Origin: Candidatus Magnetobacterium casense
GTDB lineage: Bacteria; Nitrospirota; Thermodesulfovibrionia; Thermodesulfovibrionales; Magnetobacteriaceae
Assembly: GCF_000714715.1 (NCBI RefSeq)
Contig: NZ_JMFO01000017.1
Span: forward strand, 1-64,000
Length of the DNA: 64,000 nucleotides
Direction of reading: 5' to 3'
In this document: in pieces, positions 1 to 16,067 of the stretch
Layout of the letters: every line of letters starts with the position of its first letter
Numbering within the stretch: the first letter of the stretch is position 1
Notes under the pieces: generated by a model
Database searches by the model: none
Told to the model about the DNA's origin: nothing
Seen by the model: only the letters and a program-made list of their open reading frames with translations
Position numbers and translations under genes: made by a program

Positions 1-768
1 TACCATTGTTACTCGTTGTACTTTAAATCTCTTACATACTTTTTCTATTTGACTTTTAAATGTTTTTGTATCTGATGTGTTACCTTTAAAGACTTCTATA
101 CTTACAGGTGTGCCATCTGATGATGTTAAAAGCCCTATGACTATTTGCTTTTTACCTTTTTTACCATCTCTATTATATCCATAATCACTAATTTCATTTT
201 TTTCACCTTCAAGATATGATGATGTTACATCATACAAAAACAAATCATTTTTCTCAGAATTCAAATTTTCAAAAAGAGTATTTTCTATATTTTCTTGTCT
301 TAATATAACATTGTCCATTGCTTGGTATAAATTATTTTCATCAAAATATGTATTTATATTCATTACTTCTTTAATTGGTAGTCTTTCAGCATAAACTGCC
401 GTAGATTTTTTAGAAGCAGGATGTATTACCCTTGCTATTACCATGAATAAAAATAGTGCATTGTTTAAAATTATATCTAAGCCAATTTGTTTAGCTAATT
501 GGTAAAATACATAAAGTGCACCAACTTGCCTGCTATGAGATATTTTGGCATAATGTTGGGATTGTAATGAGTCAACTGATACTATCTGTTTACCTGCTTT
601 GTGGGCTTTCAGTGCAATATTCAAAGACTGAATTTGTTCCTCTGGCAAATGAGAAATATTTAACAAGTGTGTAACGACAATCTTTTTGCCGATCCTCTTA
701 CCTTCTGCGAGATAAGCAGTCTTATAGACCTTGCCCTTAACCACCTTTCTGTATATACGCACAAACAT
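1..768 (-). CDS. IS1634-type DDE transposase, 5' part (runs off the left edge)
   Basis: The minus-strand frame is open from the ATG at 768 to the window edge (256 codons). The N-terminus (MFVRIYRKVVKGKVYKT) and the phrases DVTSSYLEG and GYNRDGKKGKKQIVIGLL match my memory of IS1634/IS4-superfamily transposases, which cut and paste DNA with a DDE catalytic triad; the DVTSS aspartate would be the first catalytic acid. The rest lies outside the window. The gene is much more AT-rich than pstS to its right, as expected for an insertion. There is no Shine-Dalgarno sequence; the start lies 8 bases past a -10 hexamer. The element interrupts the response-regulator gene at 852-1223. Family assignment is by recognition, not by search. 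Confidence 0.8.
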   Translation of the reverse strand, partial: MFVRIYRKVVKGKVYKTAYLAEGKRIGKKIVVTHLLNISHLPEEQIQSLNIALKAHKAGKQIVSVDSLQSQHYAKISHSRQVGALYVFYQLAKQIGLDIILNNALFLFMVIARVIHPASKKSTAVYAERLPIKEVMNINTYFDENNLYQAMDNVILRQENIENTLFENLNSEKNDLFLYDVTSSYLEGEKNEISDYGYNRDGKKGKKQIVIGLLTSSDGTPVSIEVFKGNTSDTKTFKSQIEKVCKRFKVQRVTMV

Positions 769-851: not shown

Positions 852-1223
852 CTATATAATCTCATGTATGGCTAATCTACAAAAAATTCCCGCATGTATT
901 TCTGGAACTTCCGTTATATAGTCGTCCGCACCCATCTCAAGACCAAGCACCTTATCGACCTCGTCACTCTTTGCCGTCAGCATTATGATTGGGATCGAGG
1001 CCGTCTGTTCTGCGCCCTTGAGCATCCTGCACAGCTCCATCCCCTGGATGCCGGGAAGCATCAGGTCTAAGATGATGAGATCAAACCTGGTGCCCTCTAT
1101 CTTTTTCAGTGCCTCCTCGCCATCATAAGAACACTCTACGTCAAACCCCTCCTTCTTTAAGTTGTAAGAGAGCAGCTCCACGATGTCCATTTCGTCATCA
1201 ACTACGATAATCTTCTTCTTCAT
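852..1223 (-). pseudogene. phoB: PhoB-like response regulator, truncated by the IS element
   Basis: This is the receiver domain of an OmpR/PhoB-type regulator: acidic pocket VVDDE near residues 7-11, phospho-acceptor Asp in LIILDLMLPG, the switch threonine in MLTAKS, then GADDYIT. At that point the family continues with a conserved Lys-Pro (KPF) and a winged-helix DNA-binding domain. Here the frame instead runs into unrelated AT-rich sequence (about 916 leftward) and stops at 852. The conserved Lys and the whole output domain are missing, so the gene is broken. It is divergent from pstS, the usual PhoB target, which supports a phosphate-response identity; a generic OmpR-family regulator is the alternative. 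The remainder may lie beyond the left edge on the far side of the IS. Confidence 0.75.
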
Positions 1224-4726: not shown

Positions 4727-5436
4727 CTACATCCACTCCGGTGCTGACAGACCCAGTATCCTCAGACCTTCCTTGAGGACTATACTGATGCAGGCACACA
4801 GCAGGAGTCTGGCCTCGGTGAGGATGACGTCCCCGGTGAGAATCCTGTGCTTGTTGTAGTAGGGGTGAAACATGGCCGCAAGCTCTTGCAGATAGAAGGT
4901 TATCCGGTGTGGTTCACGGTTTCTGACCGCTCCCTGAAAGGTCATCGGATAGAGTACCAGTTTCTTTATTATCTGCAACTCTTCCTCGGCAACAAGACAC
5001 GACAGGTCGATAGAGTCAACCCTGTCGGTAAACAGGCCCGACATGTCCGCCTGATGCTTTTTGAGGAGGCTGTTGATCCTTGCATAGGCGTACTGGACGT
5101 AGAAGACGGGGTTTTCCGAGGACTGCTTCTTGGCTGCCTCCAGGTCAAACTCCAGATGACTGTCCGGCCTCCTTGTCATGAATATGAACTTGGTGGTGTC
5201 GGAGCCGATTTCACCGATGACGTCACTGAGAGTGATAAACTCCCCTGCCCGCTTTGACATCTGCACGGGTTTGCCATCCCTCAGCAGGGAGACCATCTGC
5301 ACCAGGAGCACGGTTAGGTTCGATTCCTGCAACCCCTCCGCCCTCAACACCGCCTTGACCCGCGGGATGTAGCCGTGGTGGTCGGCCCCCCAGATGTTGA
5401 TCAACTCGTCGTAGCCACGCTCTATCTTCATCATAC
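4727..5436 (-). pseudogene. argS: Native arginyl-tRNA synthetase, 3' remnant
   Basis: This is the C-terminal part of ArgRS: the INIWGADHHGYIPR segment of the class I core, the KMSKS-type loop VQMSKRAGEFITLSDV, and the helical DALR anticodon-binding domain ending in ILGLSAPEWM. The upstream catalytic region, including HIGH, is absent; sequence right of about 5437 belongs to the AT-rich island. The 5' remnant lies at 9944-10438, and by comparison with full ArgRS roughly 160 central residues are missing from both pieces. An ATG pair at 5431-5434 overlaps the stop of the methyltransferase frame (ATGATGA), so this fragment could be translated by coupling, but it cannot make a full enzyme. Confidence 0.9.
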
Positions 5437-6319
5437 TTTTTCGAATGTATAAATAAAGCATCCAGGTTTTATATAATACTTTCCGTCATCTTTTTTGTAT
5501 TTTTCAATATCTTCTTTTAGTTCATCAATTATTTCCTGCACATTATTATGTCTATTAAATTCAGTTTCCATATGAAGATTCATAAATATTTCCAACGCAC
5601 TTTCCATTGAATCATACACAATAGGATCACCTTCCAAATGATTAACTGTTAAATTTTTAATTTTTTTCCGTCAAAAAAATTAAGAACCTCATCTAAAATT
5701 AGCTTAGATGGAGATTGTTTGATTTTACTCTTAAATAACGGAAAAAACTTTCTATATTGTCTCATTAATATTTTTTGTTCTTCACTCAAACTATCAAAGT
5801 GAATCAAGAAAAAACTTGCCCCAGATCTCATATTGTTTTGAATGAACTTCTTTATAATCTCTTCAATGTAAGCTGATTTTTTATGTTTATCGATTAGATG
5901 TTGATGAATTGAGTGAGAAAAACTCCAAAGACTATAAACCAAATCGTACTTTTTTTAGTCTCCTTTATATACTCTATATTATCACTTCTGTATATACAAA
6001 TTTTCTTATTTTTGTCATATTTGTTTTTAATTTGCTGTACCATATCTTCACTTAAATCTACTATGTCTAATTGTTTAAATTTCATTATCGAATCAATGAA
6101 AACATCTGTTCCCCTTCCGGCTCCAGCTCCTAGCTCAAGAACGTTTTCCATGTTTTTACAACAAGTATGCTTCAAAAAACTATTGAAATAGTCTATATCT
6201 GATTTTTTTGAAAAGTTATACTCTTTGAGAAGTCTATTATAATAATCTGGTTGAATATATTTTTCAATCGAACCAGAATATATTTTTAACCAAGGATATT
6301 TATTTTCTATGTTTTTCAT
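5431..6319 (-). pseudogene. Class I SAM-dependent methyltransferase, two homopolymer frameshifts
   Basis: Last gene of the argS island. It starts at 6319 and overlaps the preceding gene by 4 bases. Residues 59-70 contain SAM motif I (VLELGAGAGRG) and about 25 residues later the acidic motif VDLSEDM. The frame breaks in a 7-A run near 5952; restoring one A continues into KYDLVYSLWSFSHSI, the expected post-motif strand. A second break in an A-run near 5655 ends the frame at 5649; again one A restores the frame to the stop at 5431. The reconstructed protein is about 295 residues. Both lesions are -1 in poly-A, which fits either sequencing/assembly error or slippage, so the gene may be intact in the cell. 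The substrate cannot be inferred. Confidence 0.7.
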
Positions 6320-7512
6320 AGTAATTGTTTTTTTATCATATGATTAAATATTTCACGAGATATCAATATTGGCTTGGCAATAATTTCCTTATTAATAGCA
6401 ACGAAAGATGCTTCCAAACTATAACCACCGAATTCATAATTACCATTCTCAATATCTAATACTATTTTTTCATCTAAGATTATTGATTTTTTAATGGCAT
6501 AAATAAAGTCTAATTTTCCAAATACAGAAACATACATTGAATGCTTTAAATAATAAGTAGAATGAAAAAACTCAATCATATCTGCATCTTTGTTATAAAC
6601 ATTTATATAAAATATTGGAGCTAAGAATTCACCATAAGTTGCATTGTTATCCATTTCTTTAACAATAACCGTAGGGTGAATAATATTTGTTTTGAAATTT
6701 ATTTCTCCACCAAAAACTATGTCATCTTTATGTTTTGTTAAAAACTTACATATATAAAACAAATTTTCATGATCAATAACCTTCCCGATAGAGACTTTTT
6801 TATTTTTATAACTCCCCACTTTTACTTTTTTTAATGATATAATTAAATGCTTATAAAAATCTTTGGCAAAATTTTTATCTACAAATATTACATTTGGTGC
6901 AGCACAATCCTGTCCACTATTGAAAATCCTTGCTTTTATCGTTTTAGAAACAGCTATCTGAATATTTGCATCTTTTCCAACAACTATTGGATTAATACCT
7001 GATCCATTGTGTAAAAACAAAGTATCCTTGTGACATTTTTTCATAATTTCTATAGCATTTTGATACTTTCCTATAAAAACTACGACTTCAGATTTCTTTA
7101 TATATTTTTCAATAAAAGCAGCACGTTCAATATTAACAAGCTTTATCTCAGAAAAAAGTTCTTCTATTTTCAAGTGTTTAAAAATAATTTCGACTATATT
7201 TCTGGCTAAAATTGGCACTCTAACATATACAGACGTTGAAAAAAAAGATGGAATAATTGCAAATAAAATAATGGAAAACAATGGAAGATTTATAGGTAAA
7301 AAAACACTAATGTTAAACTGCTGTTCAGTTAAATATTCTTTTTGCATATCAATATTATCAAGCGTATCTGTTGCAACTTTAATTTCATTCACAGCAACGT
7401 TATATGGTTCATAATCAGTCAATATTTCTATCAATATTTTAGTATTTGCTTTAATGAATCTTGATAAAATCAAACATCTGTCTTCAAAATAATTAAATGC
7501 TGTCCCTTTCAT
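6316..7512 (-). CDS. Aldehyde-dehydrogenase-superfamily protein (possible acyl reductase)
   Basis: A 398-residue protein with the ALDH fold signature. The catalytic cysteine lies in FNSGQDCAAP (Cys203), preceded by GINPIVVGKDANIQIAV, which matches the ALDH strand-helix before the nucleophile; GEFLAPIFYI near residue 293 corresponds to the ALDH E-x-F-x-P motif. The usual general-base glutamate of ELGGK is not apparent (LHNGSG instead). CoA-acylating or acyl-reducing members also lack it, so reduction of an activated acyl group is conceivable. It is shorter than typical ALDHs (about 480), mostly at the N-terminus. It overlaps the nucleotidyltransferase gene by 20 bases and the methyltransferase by 4, so the three are co-translated. 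Strongly AT-rich, unlike the flanking genes. Confidence 0.65.
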   Translation of the reverse strand: MKGTAFNYFEDRCLILSRFIKANTKILIEILTDYEPYNVAVNEIKVATDTLDNIDMQKEYLTEQQFNISVFLPINLPLFSIILFAIIPSFFSTSVYVRVPILARNIVEIIFKHLKIEELFSEIKLVNIERAAFIEKYIKKSEVVVFIGKYQNAIEIMKKCHKDTLFLHNGSGINPIVVGKDANIQIAVSKTIKARIFNSGQDCAAPNVIFVDKNFAKDFYKHLIISLKKVKVGSYKNKKVSIGKVIDHENLFYICKFLTKHKDDIVFGGEINFKTNIIHPTVIVKEMDNNATYGEFLAPIFYINVYNKDADMIEFFHSTYYLKHSMYVSVFGKLDFIYAIKKSIILDEKIVLDIENGNYEFGGYSLEASFVAINKEIIAKPILISREIFNHMIKKQLL

Positions 7513-8047
7513 ATATAATAACTCTCCTTAAAAAACTATTTGTGTCCATAACTGATAGAAACTTTAATGTTTGTTGTTTCCACCTTTTTGTAATTTCATG
7601 TGCCCTTTTTCTAAAAGGTAAGTATTTTTTATGATCACCAATAAAGCCAATTGCTGTACTGGAAAGCATGCCTGCCAACACTATTCCAGTATATATTCTT
7701 AATGAATTTATTTTTATTGTTGGTACAGCCTTTTCAACATAAGTCAAAAATAAGTTTAGTTGATTTTGATTACATACTTCATAGTTATAAATGTGATCTG
7801 GAATATGGCCGGTTTTTTCATGTATATAAAAATACCACTTCAAAAACATCTCTTCCATTTTCATGTCTCGTTTTTTTAAACATACGAGTATATCTATATC
7901 ACTTTTGCTTGTAGATTTTCCCATAGCAAAGCTACCACATAAAAAAGCAAAAACAACGTTATTTTTAAAACTATTATTGATATTTTTTTTGAATTCATCA
8001 ACTACTATTGCTTTTTGTTTTTTATAAATATCTATATTCTGATGCAT
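7493..8047 (-). CDS. MNT-type nucleotidyltransferase
   Basis: A 184-residue protein with the minimal nucleotidyltransferase signature: Gly-Ser at 38-39 (LCGSFAMGKSTSKSDIDILV) followed by the Asp-x-Asp metal pair at about 50/52. Such enzymes transfer NMP to proteins (MNT antitoxins), antibiotics or small molecules. The C-terminal half is helical with basic residues and no domain I recognise. It begins 8 bases after the argS2 stop and overlaps the next gene by 20 bases, so it belongs to the same message. The substrate is unknown; no HEPN toxin partner is present, which argues against a simple MNT/HEPN toxin-antitoxin pair. Confidence 0.7.
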   Translation of the reverse strand: MHQNIDIYKKQKAIVVDEFKKNINNSFKNNVVFAFLCGSFAMGKSTSKSDIDILVCLKKRDMKMEEMFLKWYFYIHEKTGHIPDHIYNYEVCNQNQLNLFLTYVEKAVPTIKINSLRIYTGIVLAGMLSSTAIGFIGDHKKYLPFRKRAHEITKRWKQQTLKFLSVMDTNSFLRRVIIYERDSI

Positions 8048-8055
8048 TTATAATG

Positions 8056-9837
8056 TCACATTCTCTCAGGAATATCAATCCCCAAGAGATGTAGCACCAA
8101 GTTGATTTCACAGAGACAGAGCTTTGATAATGCAAGCCATGAAGATTGAAGGTCAGTATCTTTCTCGCTAAGTATATGACATTGCAAATAAAACCTGCTA
8201 AATATTTGAGACATATCATAAATGAAATCGCAAAGATAATGTGGAGTTCGTTCAATATATGCATTAATGATTGTGTCTGGAAGCATACAAAGACTTAGCA
8301 TTAACTCACGTTCAATAGCAAGAGTGGGTGGTAAAATAGAGCCAGGGTATATGTTCTTTTCTTCAGCTTTACACAAGATAGACTTTATTCTAACTGCAGT
8401 ATAAAGAAGGTAAGGCCCAGTTTTACCTTCAAATTTAGAGAATCTTTCAAGATCAAACACATAGTTAGATGTTCGATGATTACTTAAATCAGCAAACTTT
8501 AAAGCTGCAAGTCCAACTTTCTTAGAAATACTCTCACGTTCTGTAATATCGTACATTTTGGCTATGTCATTTTCCTCCATGCGAATAATTGCTTTTTCTT
8601 TAAGCATAGAAATGAGTTCTTTTAACTTCATAACACCGCCAGCTCTTGTTTTGAAAGGTTTTCCATCAGTTCCGCACATTGTTCCAAAAGCAATATGTTC
8701 TAATGCGACATCTCTTGCTAGTGAAATGAGACGAGCAGACCTGAAAACCTGTTCAAAGTGAAGAGATTGGCGCTTATCAACTACATATAGAATTATATCT
8801 GCATGAAAGTCCTTAACCCGTTCTTCAATTGTCGCCAAGTCTGTCGTGCTATACAAATATCCACCGTCAGACTTTACAAGAATAAGTGGGGGTATTTCCT
8901 TCTTATCTGTATGGCTATTAACAGGAATCACTAGGGCACCTTCACTCTCCTGAATGTAACCTTTTGCCTTCAACTCTGCAATCAAAGATGGTAATCGATC
9001 ATTATAATAACTTTCTCCACGCCAAAGATCGAATGTTACAGATAGATTTTCAAAATCTTTCTTCAATTCTTGCATTGAAATTCTAACAAAATGCCTCCAA
9101 AGAGCATAGTATCCAGGGCTTAGTTGTTGAAGTTCACGTGTTGCTTTTTGAGCCGCCTCCATATCAATCTTGTTATTTTTACAACGCATTGAGGCAACTG
9201 GATACATTTCCTCAAGAGTATTAATTGTAATTGATAACTCTTCAGGATAACTACCAGTGTGCGAAGTATCAAAATATGGGAGTTCTGGATTTCGTGCTTT
9301 CAACTCAGTAATGAGCATCCCCATCTGAAGGCCCCAATCTCCTAAGTGAATATCGCTTGTGACTTGATGTCCCAGGAATCTAAATAGTCGCTGTAAGCTA
9401 TCGCCAATTATCGTGGCCCGAAGATGACCAACATGCATTGGTTTTGCCACGTTAGGACCGCCAAAATCGATAATTACGTTCTTCGGTTTTGATACAAATG
9501 GACAGCATAGACGCTCATCTATAGACATTTGTATTACATGAGTTGTTAAAAAATCATCAGATAAATTGATATTAATGAAACCTGCCCCCGCAACAGACAG
9601 ACTATAAAATATATCCTTCTTTTCAAGAGTTTCTATAATCATTTGCGCTATATCACGAGGATTCTTCTTGTAAATCTTTGCCACAGACAGGGCACCATTA
9701 CATTGAAACTGACCTAAATCTGGTCTGTCTGAAATTACAACCCGGCCAAATTTAGCATCAAATCCGAGGACTTCAAATGCGTTTGAAAAGAACATTGTAA
9801 GTTGCTCTATTAATGTTAATATCGCCATATCTTTCAT
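8056..9837 (-). CDS. argS: Complete arginyl-tRNA synthetase of a divergent type (island copy)
   Basis: Charges tRNA-Arg with arginine. The 593-residue protein is full length: N-terminal tRNA D-loop-binding domain (to about 115), HIGH motif as HVGH at 135-138 (within GGPNVAKPMHVGHLR), the class I core, and a C-terminal DALR domain ending in HLLGIDIPERM. The KMSKS position reads FKTRAGG (395-401), the non-canonical form I recall from E. coli-type ArgRS, whereas the native remnant has canonical MSKR. The two genes are therefore from different lineages, not a tandem duplication. It has its own promoter and AGGAGG 10 bases before the ATG. Since the native gene is gutted, this copy presumably supplies the essential activity. 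The AT-rich composition indicates horizontal acquisition. Confidence 0.93.
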   Translation of the reverse strand: MKDMAILTLIEQLTMFFSNAFEVLGFDAKFGRVVISDRPDLGQFQCNGALSVAKIYKKNPRDIAQMIIETLEKKDIFYSLSVAGAGFININLSDDFLTTHVIQMSIDERLCCPFVSKPKNVIIDFGGPNVAKPMHVGHLRATIIGDSLQRLFRFLGHQVTSDIHLGDWGLQMGMLITELKARNPELPYFDTSHTGSYPEELSITINTLEEMYPVASMRCKNNKIDMEAAQKATRELQQLSPGYYALWRHFVRISMQELKKDFENLSVTFDLWRGESYYNDRLPSLIAELKAKGYIQESEGALVIPVNSHTDKKEIPPLILVKSDGGYLYSTTDLATIEERVKDFHADIILYVVDKRQSLHFEQVFRSARLISLARDVALEHIAFGTMCGTDGKPFKTRAGGVMKLKELISMLKEKAIIRMEENDIAKMYDITERESISKKVGLAALKFADLSNHRTSNYVFDLERFSKFEGKTGPYLLYTAVRIKSILCKAEEKNIYPGSILPPTLAIERELMLSLCMLPDTIINAYIERTPHYLCDFIYDMSQIFSRFYLQCHILSEKDTDLQSSWLALSKLCLCEINLVLHLLGIDIPERM

Positions 9838-9892
9838 ATCTGCAATCCCTCCTATAAGTCCATCGATGACAACACCCTCATTCGGTATTTAT

Positions 9893-9921
9893 AGTCTACA
9901 ACAAAATTATACTTCTGTCAA
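9893..9921 (-). promoter_or_regulatory. Promoter of the argS island operon
   Basis: Minus-strand TTGACA (9916-9921) and TAGACT (9893-9898) are spaced by 17 bases. The predicted start leaves a leader of about 50 bases with an AGGAGG ribosome site at 9848-9853. The promoter lies inside the inserted segment, so the island carries its own expression signal. Confidence 0.7.
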
Positions 9922-9943
9922 TCGCTTTTTGCAAATCTGTTGC

Positions 9944-10438
9944 TTATTCTATGTAGAACTCCCGCTCGACAACGTACCCGGCACTTTGCAGCAGGTTTGA
10001 CAGGGCATTGCCCAAGGCTGCCCCCCGACCATGTCCAACGTGCAACGGCCCCGTTGGGTTGGCGCTGACAAACTCTATCAACACCCGCCTGCCATGACCG
10101 ACATCAACCCTCAAGCGCAACTGCCGCTCCTTGTACAAGAGCCTCAGTTGTTCGTACAGGTAGTCTCTCTTAAACCTGAAGTTTATAAACCCCGGTCCTG
10201 CCACCTCTATGGAGTCAAAGGCCGCAATATCCCCCTGGGGCATCCCCCTGATGGCGGAGATGATCTCCTGCGCTATGGCCCGCGGCGCTTTACGCAAAAC
10301 ACCGGCAAGCCCCAGGGCAACCGGCGTTGATACATCCCCCTGCGACTGCACCTTTGGTATCTCCACTTCCACATAATCGGCTTCTATGCCCATGCCCGCA
10401 ACGGCCTTTAATACTATCTCTCTTATCATAAAAAACAT
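9944..10438 (-). pseudogene. argS: Native arginyl-tRNA synthetase, 5' remnant
   Basis: Encodes the N-terminal domain and the start of the catalytic core of ArgRS, including EFVSANPTGPLHVGH (HVGH at 133-136) up to YVVEREFYI, then stops after one foreign codon. A second in-frame ATG at 10429 (MIREIVLKAV) is the more typical family start; an AGAAGG motif just before 10438 sits too close to the first ATG. The composition matches the surrounding chromosome, not the island. It pairs with the remnant at 4727-5436; together they lack the central region, so the native enzyme is inactive. Confidence 0.92.
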
Positions 10439-11099: not shown

Positions 11100-14000
11100 A
11101 TGAGTAGAAGCAGAAGTATAATCAAGACGTTGTTGTTAGTATTGGCGTTGTTTCTGTGCCTATCGGGCAACGGTTACAGTAAGGCAGAGAACGATTTTAA
11201 CAGTGACAACAGGACGGACGTGCTGTGGTATAACATCGATAGCGGGGATGTTGTTACGTGGGCAATGAACGGCAAGGCGGTAAGCAAGGTATCCGTATTG
11301 GCAACGGGCCGGGAACTGATGTGGCAGATAGTTGGTACGGGTGACTTTGACAAGGACGGCGTTACCGATATCTTGTGGCAGAATACGAGCACAGGCGAGG
11401 TGTCTGTGTGGTTGAAGAACGGTTCCCAAAAGGTATCAATCGTGACCTTTGCGGGGACGAAGTGGGAGGTCAAGGCAATAGGGGACTTTGACGGTGACGG
11501 CAAGAGCGATATACTTTGGCAGGACAAAACAACAGGCGACATATGTCTATGGCTTATGAACGGCGGGACAATCAAGACAAATCAGGAGATATCGTTTAGC
11601 GCCCTTAGTGGTTGGGAGGTCAAGGCCGTAGGCGATTTTGACGGTGATGGCAATAGCGATATCTTGTGGCGCCACAGTAGTACATACGCAATAGCGATAT
11701 GGTTTATGAACGGGGTGAAGGTGAAGTCGGCAACCCCATCGGCACAGGTAGGCAGCGAGTGGTTAATCAGGGGTATTGCTGACTTTGACGGAGACGGCAA
11801 GAGCGATATCATGTGGCAGAACAGCAACACGGGTATGCTTTACACATGGTTAATGGACGGTACAAAGGTAAAGCCATCCAGCGGGATACCTGTTACCCCG
11901 GAAAAGATACAGCAGATATCGTTGACAACCTGGCGTATTCAGGACATAGGTGATTTTGACGGTAACGGTAAGAGCGATATCCTGTGGTACAACCCATCAA
12001 CTAATGAGTTTGCCGTATGGCTGATGGATGGGGTGTCCATCAAAGACTATGGTTTTACAACAAAGCTTGATAAAGGCAGTTGGAAGAGCATCCCCAGCGG
12101 CAGCAACATAATACCGTTGTTCAATACGGGTATTTCAGCAAGCAATCTAAGCCCAACGCAGGGTTATTCAGCTACCGCAGTAACAATAAAGGGGTCAGGA
12201 TTTACCAATAAGTCGCAGGTGACATTTGGGAGTTATGCGGTCAAGGACGTGAGTTTTGTCTCTGAGAATGAGCTTGTCGTTTATGTGCCGTTTGCAGTGC
12301 TTGACGGCAAGGTATCAGGGCTTCCAAAAGGGGCATATTCAGTGAGTGTAGACGGCAAGAACGTGGGTAGTTTTTCAGCATTGGCATTGCCCGATAACCC
12401 TAACCCATCAGGGGCGGTTCTAAAGGATACAGTGAGTGCAATGACCGATAACTTTGTCGCAAGTAAGGAGGCTATACAGTCAGGAATAGCAACAGTGAAG
12501 TCATCCACAACAGACGCTAACCTGATAGCGTTTCTTGATCAAATGAGCGGTGTGTTACCTGATTTGGAGACATTCTTACGCAATGGTGCATCAGATAACA
12601 TTGATGAAATAGACCCTGCAACATTGGCTGTGATTGAACAAACAATCCTTGCCAATAACAGGGCATTGAATTTCAAGGCCGCCTCTCCAGCCAAACCTCA
12701 AGGTTCTTTACCAAACAAGTCAACCGCAAGAGGTACAGGAAAAAAATGTGACGATATAGGTGGTGATAAATGGTTATTAGATCGTACAGATGTAACGACC
12801 GGGATATTTGCATATGAGACAGGTGATGCAGTTTTAACAATATGTGGCTTTGTAGCTGATCCAAGATGGGCGTGTGCATGCCAAGTAACTGAGGCAATAT
12901 CTAAGATTACTTGGGCAAGTAAATTTTTTGAGTTAGCAGAATACGGTAGTTTTAACGGTATTACTCTTGATGCTGACATTGGAAAAGTAGGAATACCTAC
13001 CCAGTCTGCTTTAACGTTAGAACTTGCACCAGATGAAACATCGCAGTTGAAGGCGTCAATCAGGACTGCCGATGATATTGATTCAGAGTTAGCTAAATTA
13101 CTATCATTGATTTCTAGTATAGACAGCCTTATATCGTCAACGTCCTGCAACCGTCCTTCACTGTTTCAAAAAATTCACATCTTAGGAGAGTTAGCCTCAA
13201 AAGTGTCTCATCCTGATTCTCAGAATGAAAAGGTTTGTCCTGTTAGTTTCTCAAAGGTTGAACGTGCGTCCCCTGAGCCAAAATTTTTATATGGCTATCT
13301 TTTGTCTGTAGAGGATAACGGTAACATTTCCTGGGCAGATAAAACTGGAAAGAGACAAAGCCGTCTCGATAGTGCAATGACGTATTTTAGGGTCAAGCCT
13401 ACTTATCTGACACTAAGAGAGAAATTACTCATAGATCATTATGCCGTAATCGTTAAGAATTATGCCAAATCCGGCCCCGTTCTTGAGGTTGATAAGGCAT
13501 CTGGTAATGTAGGCGATACGTTTAACTTTACGGGCAGGTATTTCACGAAGTCCGGTTCCGTTGAGTTTTCCATAACAGGCAGTGAAGGCAGCGATGTCGG
13601 GTATGACGTCATGACCCTTACAGCAGATGATAAAGGTCAGATATCACAACCCTACAAGCCTACCAGTGCAGGTACATATACCATGTCGGCAAAAGATTTG
13701 AAGACCGGAGCCAGGACATCTAATGTTTCCATAACAGTAGCAGGTAGCAATGGCAAGCGCTTTAAGGATAACGGAGACGGCTCAATGACGGATACATATA
13801 CCGGCCTGCAGTGGATGAAAAAAGCTGACGGGTGTAACGGCTATGTGACGTGGGATGTAGCGAATACCTGTGTGCCTTCAGGCTGGAGGTTGCCAACGAT
13901 ACAGGAGTTGTATACCCTTTGCAGGGAGGACGGGACTACAACAGGGTTAGACCTCAATGCAACCAACTGGTATTATTGTAACGGCCATGCTGTTGATCGT

Positions 14001-14177
14001 ACAACACAGCTTAGGGACGATGGTTTTGATGTGCTCACGATCCTCTACTGGTCCTCTACTACCCTCGCTAGCGATACGTCCTACGCATGGTTCGTCCACA
14101 TGGGCTACGGCCTCGTCCTCGCCAACGGCAAGTCCCACAGCTACATCTATGTATGGCCAGTTCGTTCCGGACATTGA
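11100..14177 (+). CDS. Secreted FG-GAP/VCBS-IPT protein with C-terminal DUF1566 domain
   Basis: A 1025-residue exported protein. Residues 1-27 are a signal peptide (TLLLVLALFLCLSG). Residues 30-335 hold about six FG-GAP-like repeats with calcium-type loops (GDFDGDGKSDILW), predicting a beta-propeller. An IPT/TIG domain follows (about 345-425: LSPTQGYSATAVTIKGSGF), then a long unassigned region with several cysteines. A DUF1566/Lcl C-terminal domain with C-type-lectin-like character covers about 885-1025 (DNGDGSMTDTYTGLQWMK to WPVRSGH). The last 45 codons switch abruptly to C-ending codons (CTC, GTC, TAC, TCC) around YWSSTT and YAW, the pattern of retroelement-diversified variable regions; no reverse transcriptase or template repeat is in the window. 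Start set by AAGGAGG. Probable role: surface ligand binding or adhesion. Confidence 0.85.
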   Translation: MSRSRSIIKTLLLVLALFLCLSGNGYSKAENDFNSDNRTDVLWYNIDSGDVVTWAMNGKAVSKVSVLATGRELMWQIVGTGDFDKDGVTDILWQNTSTGEVSVWLKNGSQKVSIVTFAGTKWEVKAIGDFDGDGKSDILWQDKTTGDICLWLMNGGTIKTNQEISFSALSGWEVKAVGDFDGDGNSDILWRHSSTYAIAIWFMNGVKVKSATPSAQVGSEWLIRGIADFDGDGKSDIMWQNSNTGMLYTWLMDGTKVKPSSGIPVTPEKIQQISLTTWRIQDIGDFDGNGKSDILWYNPSTNEFAVWLMDGVSIKDYGFTTKLDKGSWKSIPSGSNIIPLFNTGISASNLSPTQGYSATAVTIKGSGFTNKSQVTFGSYAVKDVSFVSENELVVYVPFAVLDGKVSGLPKGAYSVSVDGKNVGSFSALALPDNPNPSGAVLKDTVSAMTDNFVASKEAIQSGIATVKSSTTDANLIAFLDQMSGVLPDLETFLRNGASDNIDEIDPATLAVIEQTILANNRALNFKAASPAKPQGSLPNKSTARGTGKKCDDIGGDKWLLDRTDVTTGIFAYETGDAVLTICGFVADPRWACACQVTEAISKITWASKFFELAEYGSFNGITLDADIGKVGIPTQSALTLELAPDETSQLKASIRTADDIDSELAKLLSLISSIDSLISSTSCNRPSLFQKIHILGELASKVSHPDSQNEKVCPVSFSKVERASPEPKFLYGYLLSVEDNGNISWADKTGKRQSRLDSAMTYFRVKPTYLTLREKLLIDHYAVIVKNYAKSGPVLEVDKASGNVGDTFNFTGRYFTKSGSVEFSITGSEGSDVGYDVMTLTADDKGQISQPYKPTSAGTYTMSAKDLKTGARTSNVSITVAGSNGKRFKDNGDGSMTDTYTGLQWMKKADGCNGYVTWDVANTCVPSGWRLPTIQELYTLCREDGTTTGLDLNATNWYYCNGHAVDRTTQLRDDGFDVLTILYWSSTTLASDTSYAWFVHMGYGLVLANGKSHSYIYVWPVRSGH

Positions 14178-15065: not shown

Positions 15066-15290
15066 GTGACCGAACGCAAGCACCTGACCGGCACGGATAA
15101 CGGCGATGGCTCAATGACAGACACATACACCGGCCTGCAGTGGATGAAAAACGCCGACGGCTGTAACGGCTATGCAAAGTGGGATGTGGCGAATACCTGT
15201 GTGCCATCAGGTTGGCGTCTGCCGACGATAGAGGAGTTGTATACCCTTTGCAGGGAGGATGAGAAGACAACAGGGTTAGATGCAATGCTA
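15066..15290 (+). pseudogene. Partial DUF1566 duplicate
   Basis: DNA at about 15093-15275 is a close copy of 13755-13935, the first half of the DUF1566 domain of the FG-GAP protein (TDTYTGLQWMKNADGCNGY, then WRLPTIEELYTLCRED). It lacks the upstream domains and the C-terminal variable part, diverging after TTGLDAML. The frame happens to stay open into the next gene, but a promoter and ribosome site in between indicate the two are separate. A leftover of duplication or recombination. Confidence 0.7.
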
Positions 15291-15291
15291 A

Positions 15292-15350
15292 ATACGGATC
15301 ACCTCGCAGCACGGTTGCAGAATGAGTGCGGGACGTGGTATAGTAAATGT
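15292..15350 (+). promoter_or_regulatory. Duplicated promoter-like module, copy 2
   Basis: Near-identical to the module at 14301-14350. TTGCAG (15315-15320) and TATAGT (15339-15344) are 18 bases apart and point into the coiled-coil nuclease-like gene. Confidence 0.6.
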
Positions 15351-15377
15351 AGACGATATGAAGGGAGGATTACAACG

Positions 15378-16067
15378 ATGCAAATGATATTGGAAGCAAG
15401 AGTAGACCGCTTGGAGAACATCTTTGCAGAGATGATCGAGCGTCAAATGGAGCGTGATCGGAGGGATGAGGAGCAGGATCGCAAGGAGAAAGAGGCGCAA
15501 GAAGCCTTTCGTCAGGAGATGAGGGCTATGGAGGTTCGGTTCGAGGAGTGGCTTAAAAAGGATAAGGAAGAGAGGAAAGAAGAACGTAAGGCATTCGAGC
15601 GGCAGGTTAATAAAGCAATTGGTGATAGTTCTAACAAATTCGGGACTCTCGTTGAAAACTTAATAGCGCCTGGAGCAAAACCACTAATAAGACAATATTT
15701 TAAGTGTGAACCCGATGATTTTCGTGTAAGAGCCATGAAAAGGAATGGGGGTAAAAAATGTGAGGTTGACGTCTTGCTAATCTGCCAAGATAAGGCATTC
15801 ATGATAGAGGTAAAATCTAAACCTGATGACCATGATGTCGTCAAGATACTTGCTAAGGCGAAGACACTAACGACCTTCTTCAATGAGTGTGTCGGTAAGC
15901 AAATAATCCCCATGTTGGCAAGTACATTTATTGAGGAAGACATTATCAACCTTGCAACAAGCAACGGACTGCATGTTGTCGCATACAGACAGTGGGAGTA
16001 CCTCGACATCCTTAATTTCGATGCGATAAACGAAAAGAACAAAGACAAAGATACCCCTCTGACCTAA
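15378..16067 (+). CDS. Coiled-coil protein with PD-(D/E)XK nuclease-like C-terminus
   Basis: The ATG at 15378 follows GGGAGG with good spacing, giving about 229 residues. The first half is a charged helix (runs of EERKEERKAFERQ), a likely coiled coil. The second half has EVDVLLICQDKAFMIEVKS, matching the D...E-x-K core of PD-(D/E)XK folds, after NKFGTLVENLIAPG. This layout (DUF3782-like) also appears at 44634-45458 with different repeats. Such proteins are common in Nitrospirota and cyanobacteria and their role is unknown to me; DNA or RNA cleavage is plausible because the acidic and lysine residues are present. Confidence 0.7.
   Translation: MQMILEARVDRLENIFAEMIERQMERDRRDEEQDRKEKEAQEAFRQEMRAMEVRFEEWLKKDKEERKEERKAFERQVNKAIGDSSNKFGTLVENLIAPGAKPLIRQYFKCEPDDFRVRAMKRNGGKKCEVDVLLICQDKAFMIEVKSKPDDHDVVKILAKAKTLTTFFNECVGKQIIPMLASTFIEEDIINLATSNGLHVVAYRQWEYLDILNFDAINEKNKDKDTPLT

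Follow-up and report, generated by a model that had tools for sequence, protein, structure and literature searches.

What has happened to the arginyl-tRNA synthetase gene, argS, of Candidatus Magnetobacterium casense, in which a foreign argS stands between the two ends of the native gene, and what might the foreign synthetase (ArgRS) do together with the three genes that accompany it? The locus lies in positions 1–64,000 of contig NZ_JMFO01000017.1 (assembly GCF_000714715.1), a stretch of 64,000 nt that we call the window. The replacement of argS is real in the assembly: an island encoding a complete ArgRS, a nucleotidyltransferase, a protein of the aldehyde dehydrogenase (ALDH) superfamily and a methyltransferase occupies the middle of the native gene (Table 1). 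Sequence comparisons give good support to the coupling of a foreign-type ArgRS with this rare ALDH in two unrelated bacteria, here by an operon and elsewhere by protein fusion. We consider the chances about even that the island is a mini-operon, gained by horizontal transfer, that makes an arginine-derived aldehyde and the ArgRS of which has taken over the housekeeping role.

A search of the genome with the TIGR00456 profile returned three real argS matches, all at this locus. Two of them are partial and flank the island copy, in agreement with the original prediction that only the 5′ and 3′ ends of the native gene are left: the 5′ remnant matches at 9950–10408 (model positions 11–158) and the 3′ remnant at 4730–5440 (model positions 318–569). 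Chance does not explain how a complete paralogue could come to stand between two halves of a single gene that are still collinear. The island was delimited by comparison with the intact argS genes of three genomes of the same genus (G001–G003, of which G002 has two). The 5′ remnant is 78–87% identical to these genes in DNA, with the alignment ending exactly at 9950, and the 3′ remnant is 78–88% identical, with the alignment beginning at 5433 (5434 in one genome). Between these two points, the intact genes contain 466 bp (465 in one genome) by BLASTN. Because the alignments break there, the island can be assigned 4,516 bp that stand in place of the 466 bp. The edges thus lie at 5434 and 9949; the central gap is as predicted, but its size, put at about 160 codons, comes to about 155. 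At the left join, which comes after the native codons ...EFYI, a stop codon lies within two codons; the right join comes directly after the final codons of the methyltransferase frame.

A second intact argS of the native type was searched for in the assembly, which comprises 70 contigs and is 92% complete, and none was found; the missing 466-bp segment also has no match anywhere in it. In G002, one argS lies behind aroA. A second argS at the corresponding position was excluded here, where aroA is followed by genes reading as cmk, ispH and rpsA. The two argS genes of G002 (L126 and L127) lie on different contigs with different neighbours, through genuine duplication or because the bin is mixed. 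The assembly therefore has no complete argS besides that of the island, which must serve the cell unless a further copy lies in the unassembled 8%; we infer an essential cellular role for its product. Both native remnants are open, with no stop codons, and show 86–90% protein identity to G003. After the two lineages diverged, the changes specific to each, counted as nonsynonymous:synonymous, came to 21:36 in the remnants versus 20:47 in G003. The open frames and the normal ratio show that the native argS was under constraint until recently, so the insertion event is recent.

Remnants under normal constraint and without decay would also fit a strain or assembly variant, in which a rare insertion path was assembled or an intact native argS resides in the unassembled part of the genome; the fragmentation and incompleteness of the assembly and the two argS genes on separate contigs in G002 are likewise compatible with it. 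However, both junctions lie on one contig with collinear halves, such that a chimera would need two matched false joins, and in this genome the 466-bp segment is missing from the assembly and the aroA locus lacks an argS. We regard such a variant as improbable.

The island had been described as an AT-rich operon of coupled genes, and both descriptions hold. The GC content is 55% in the native argS pieces versus 37% in the island argS and 26–28% in the three genes downstream, and the order argS, nucleotidyltransferase, ALDH, methyltransferase is spaced by an 8-nt gap, a 20-nt overlap and a 4-nt overlap. The candidate promoters in the leader are consensus matches only, and the total promoter-like count of the region equals that of shuffled sequences. 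The original prediction had also offered a gene-replacement element that makes itself indispensable; such an element, if dedicated to argS as its target, would account for an insertion in the very gene whose loss the island compensates. However, no terminal inverted repeats, target duplication, integrase or transposase were found within or at the edges of 5434–9949, no second copy of the island was found in the genome, and relatives yielded no further copy of either the island or its ALDH. In the phylum sample, close island-type ArgRSs occur only as the housekeeping enzyme of one genus, the others being far more distant, and no close relative of the ALDH was found in the host's class. The location in argS requires no targeting, because only an insert that brings an argS leaves a viable cell. 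With survivorship explaining the location, we find an element of this kind scarcely credible.

Table 1. Features of the argS locus (window coordinates)
Feature	Position	Strand	Details
Native argS 3′ remnant	4727–5433	(-)	KMSKR loop and anticodon-binding domain; DALR_1 match
Foreign island	5434–9949	(-)	4516 bp in place of 466 bp of native argS
S-adenosylmethionine (SAM)-dependent methyltransferase gene, broken	5434–6319	(-)	Pieces 5894–6319, 5649–5942 and 5434 to about 5660
ALDH-superfamily protein, proposed acyl reductase	6316–7512	(-)	PF00171, E 6e-24; Cys203 in GQDC, Asn75
Minimal nucleotidyltransferase	7493–8047	(-)	PF18765/PF01909; GSxxxGx6SDID motif intact
Complete foreign argS	8056–9837	(-)	593 aa, E. 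coli-type ArgRS, KPFKTRAGG loop
Island leader	9838–9949	(-)	Candidate promoter TTGACA-17-TAGACT or TTGCAA-17-TATAAT; AGGAGGG ribosome-binding site
Native argS 5′ remnant	9950–10438	(-)	N-terminal domain and HVGH part of catalytic domain

The island ArgRS scores 438.8 bits against TIGR00456 (cut-off 261.65) over nearly its full length (match at 8059–9741), and its N-terminal, catalytic and DALR domains (PF03485, PF00750 and PF05746) were all found. Its signatures, MHVGH and DGKPFKTRAGG, are the same as those of its relatives, with KPFKTRAGG replacing the native KMSKR loop. In a phylogenetic tree, the native and island ArgRSs fall into separate deep clades, and the sister group of the island enzyme (99/97) is the ArgRS of a single Nitrospirota genus, at 66–67% identity. 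In that genus (G167–G170), which belongs to the host's order, the island-type ArgRS is the only argS product, and the surroundings of its gene are ordinary and lack the other three genes. The type can thus serve as a housekeeping enzyme, and it has taken the place of the native one elsewhere in the same order. Three loci (L146–L148, in G167, G169 and G170) show the argS swap to the other deep type to be genus-wide. Viral contigs scanned with the island ArgRS yielded two distant loci only, 40–43% identical.

This spread by replacement favours the main rival to a biosynthetic unit of ArgRS and reductase, namely xenologous displacement, in which a foreign argS replaced the native gene in place and the other three genes are unrelated passengers. 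The lower GC content of the downstream genes relative to the island argS and the broken state of the methyltransferase point in the same direction. The tight coupling of the operon argues against passengers, and a fusion of ArgRS with ALDH in a genome that has a separate housekeeping argS, described below, is hard to explain without a shared function; we therefore hold displacement with passengers to be rather unlikely. The locus resembles known in-situ xenologous displacements in that a native gene was replaced at its own position by a distant homologue. It differs in that both ends of the displaced gene persist and three extra genes came with the new one.

The third island gene had been noted as ALDH-like, an assignment that stands for the superfamily but can be narrowed to a distinct short subfamily. 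In an alignment of this subfamily, the catalytic Cys (in GQDC or GQEC; Cys203 here) and the Asn are invariant. By contrast, the catalytic Glu of ELGG-type hydrolytic ALDHs is missing across the subfamily, its place being taken by NGSG, FGSG or EGKH. Hydrolytic ALDHs use that Glu for deacylation, and its loss is also seen in reductases acting on activated acyl groups. LuxC and the coenzyme A (CoA)-acylating ALDHs are such reductases, with the catalytic Cys kept and the hydrolytic Glu absent; however, the island protein scores 20.1 bits against the LuxC family (PF05893; cut-off 21, E 3e-4), and the island has no CoA or acyl-protein partner.

Relatives of the ALDH were sought, with the single protein or the subfamily alignment, in the host's class, in three other phyla and in 22 genomes that carry ArgRS relatives. 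Members of the subfamily were found only in Streptomyces and in one pseudomonadotan genome. The Streptomyces matches, which cover 92% of the length of the island protein, are proteins of plasmid biosynthetic clusters that also carry an adenylate-forming enzyme, a thiamine diphosphate (ThDP) enzyme and ATP-grasp ligases. None of the 398 Bacillota and 395 Bacteroidota genomes sampled contained a member of the subfamily, and scans of viral contigs with the ALDH and with the subfamily alignment returned nothing; matches in phages are weak and generic. An 84-bit match in a myxococcotan was rejected as an ordinary ALDH within a long GC-rich frame. Single-sequence structure predictions reached a mean predicted local distance difference test (pLDDT) score of 30 for the ALDH and 45 for the nucleotidyltransferase and were not used for fold searches.

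Among 398 Pseudomonadota genomes searched with the subfamily alignment, one gave a strong match (172 bits), and 22 others gave generic ALDHs at no more than 84 bits. The strong match is the middle of a 1,666-aa open frame (L167, 6349–11349) in a 2.6-Mb genome. The N-terminal 730 residues of this protein form an ArgRS whose signature motifs are intact, the ALDH follows, and a GNAT domain forms the C terminus; a stretch with no assigned domain lies between the ALDH and the GNAT domain. The fused ALDH aligns with the island ALDH over 362 residues (E 3e-35), and the fused ArgRS is 34% identical to the island ArgRS (E 3e-44). A GNAT protein encoded beside the Streptomyces ALDH was considered as a counterpart of the GNAT end, and the comparison gave no support. 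In the 88% of the fusion-bearing genome that was examined, there is a separate, ordinary housekeeping argS of the native type, which makes the fused ArgRS an additional copy. In the tree, both ALDH-linked ArgRSs belong to the deep ArgRS type opposite to that of their hosts' own enzymes. The long branch of the fused one makes its placement inside the E. coli-type clade unsure. The fusion, in another phylum and beside a separate housekeeping argS, independently supports the earlier proposal that the island is a biosynthetic cassette whose ArgRS provides arginine in activated form. The recurrence of the pair across phyla hints that activated arginine is converted to an arginine-derived aldehyde by a route not yet described.

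Under the mini-operon reading, illegitimate recombination would have joined the operon into the native argS, removing 466 bp, and the cell would have survived because the island ArgRS, a complete enzyme of the housekeeping type, charges tRNA-Arg for the whole proteome. The same enzyme would activate arginine, either by charging it onto tRNA or as Arg-AMP made while tRNA is present. ArgRS needs tRNA even for adenylation, so the activated form is likely to be Arg-tRNA, or Arg-AMP made on the enzyme. The ALDH cysteine would then accept the arginyl group, NAD(P)H would reduce it to argininal, and the nucleotidyltransferase and methyltransferase would tailor the product. We infer the reductase chemistry, the form of the substrate and the product from sequence. 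The nearest working analogy for this predicted mechanism is glutamyl-tRNA reductase (GluTR, HemA) with GltX, in which a synthetase provides the charged tRNA from which a Cys-dependent NADPH reductase releases an amino aldehyde. The island differs in its amino acid, in the ALDH-superfamily fold and in having its own synthetase, and its reductase reaction is a prediction. We put forward tentatively, as possible though somewhat doubtful, that ArgRS and ALDH together form an 'arginyl-tRNA reductase'. This would be a second aminoacyl-tRNA-to-aldehyde reaction, with a fold unrelated to GluTR, organized as an operon or a fused protein, and with a synthetase that has just displaced the housekeeping argS.

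Synthetases are known in biosynthetic clusters, for example the seryl-tRNA synthetase VlmL of valanimycin, and in several the resistance copy is a synthetase of foreign type (mupirocin, borrelidin and albomycin). The island shares with these a second synthetase within a small-molecule gene set; it differs in that the synthetase is an ArgRS and that the assembly now has no other complete copy. The resistance copies, and the opposite deep types of the island and native ArgRSs, lend some plausibility to the island ArgRS being a self-immunity copy, protecting against a product that inhibits the native-type ArgRS, with the native argS lost as sensitive or redundant. However, the fusion makes the ArgRS a component of the enzyme itself, which points to catalysis, and the host of the fusion retains a native-type argS that is evidently compatible with the ALDH. 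No case of ArgRS self-resistance was found in the literature, and we rate self-immunity as distinctly improbable.

A literature search found no paper on an ArgRS–ALDH link or on argininal biosynthesis through Arg-tRNA. The nearest tRNA-dependent peptide-aldehyde case is livipeptin, for which the abstract proposes arginine-ended peptide protease inhibitors made by a tRNA-utilizing leucyl/phenylalanyl (L/F) transferase and a C-minus non-ribosomal peptide synthetase (NRPS; PMC10548850). A tRNA-dependent step, protein fusions and a small peptide aldehyde class are common to that system and the proposed one; livipeptin relies on an L/F-transferase homologue and an NRPS-like protein, and its abstract mentions no ArgRS or ALDH of this kind.

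The two putative tailoring enzymes add less. Relatives of the nucleotidyltransferase were not found in a plasmid search or a viral contig scan. An MNT/HEPN toxin–antitoxin or defence system was rejected: the PADLOC and MntA matches are weak, and the island has no HEPN or other partner gene. The methyltransferase, predicted as the fourth gene of the operon, is present but not intact. Its PF13649 match (E 3e-5) lies just under the cut-off, its N-terminal piece found nothing in the plasmid search, and its frame is shifted at two places, close to runs of A/T at about 5950 and at 5661–5679. The two shifts may be genuine or may stem from sequencing errors.

Several observations weigh against the mini-operon reading. 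If the methyltransferase is truly frameshifted, the pathway may be decaying here, and because the GC content of the downstream genes lies below that of the island argS, the operon itself may be composite. The four-gene set was not found anywhere else: the host of the fusion has no accompanying nucleotidyltransferase and methyltransferase, and the Streptomyces clusters are without ArgRS in the stretches read. The ALDH members share only 24–28% identity across lineages, no member of tested function was found in the literature, and the island ArgRS is closest to housekeeping ArgRSs (66%), not to the fused one. If the mini-operon reading is nevertheless true, it would imply a new activity, from tRNA- or AMP-activated arginine to an aldehyde, and argininal-type compounds made without a peptide synthetase; an ArgRS adjoining or fused to this ALDH would be a signature for mining. 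The recent displacement of an essential synthetase at its own locus, with both old ends still readable, makes the order and constraints of such replacements testable.

Other features were seen in the window and its genome. A dispersed repeat of ~55–90 bp, which adjoins argS in relatives, occurs at about 40 places in the Magnetobacterium casense genome (G000; for example, C17:43329–43386 and C11:52497–52585). At window positions 1–768 (minus strand), an AT-rich (27% GC) IS1634-family transposase gene (NF033559) runs off the contig start. It adjoins a truncated phoB-like response regulator gene (852–1223, minus strand), which itself lies upstream of a pstS-like gene. Here, 4 kb from argS, another gene thus seems to have been interrupted by a second AT-rich insertion. 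Finally, the genes at 11100–14177 and 15066–16067 have in common a near-identical DUF1566-like segment (DNGDGSMTDTYTGLQWMK...).

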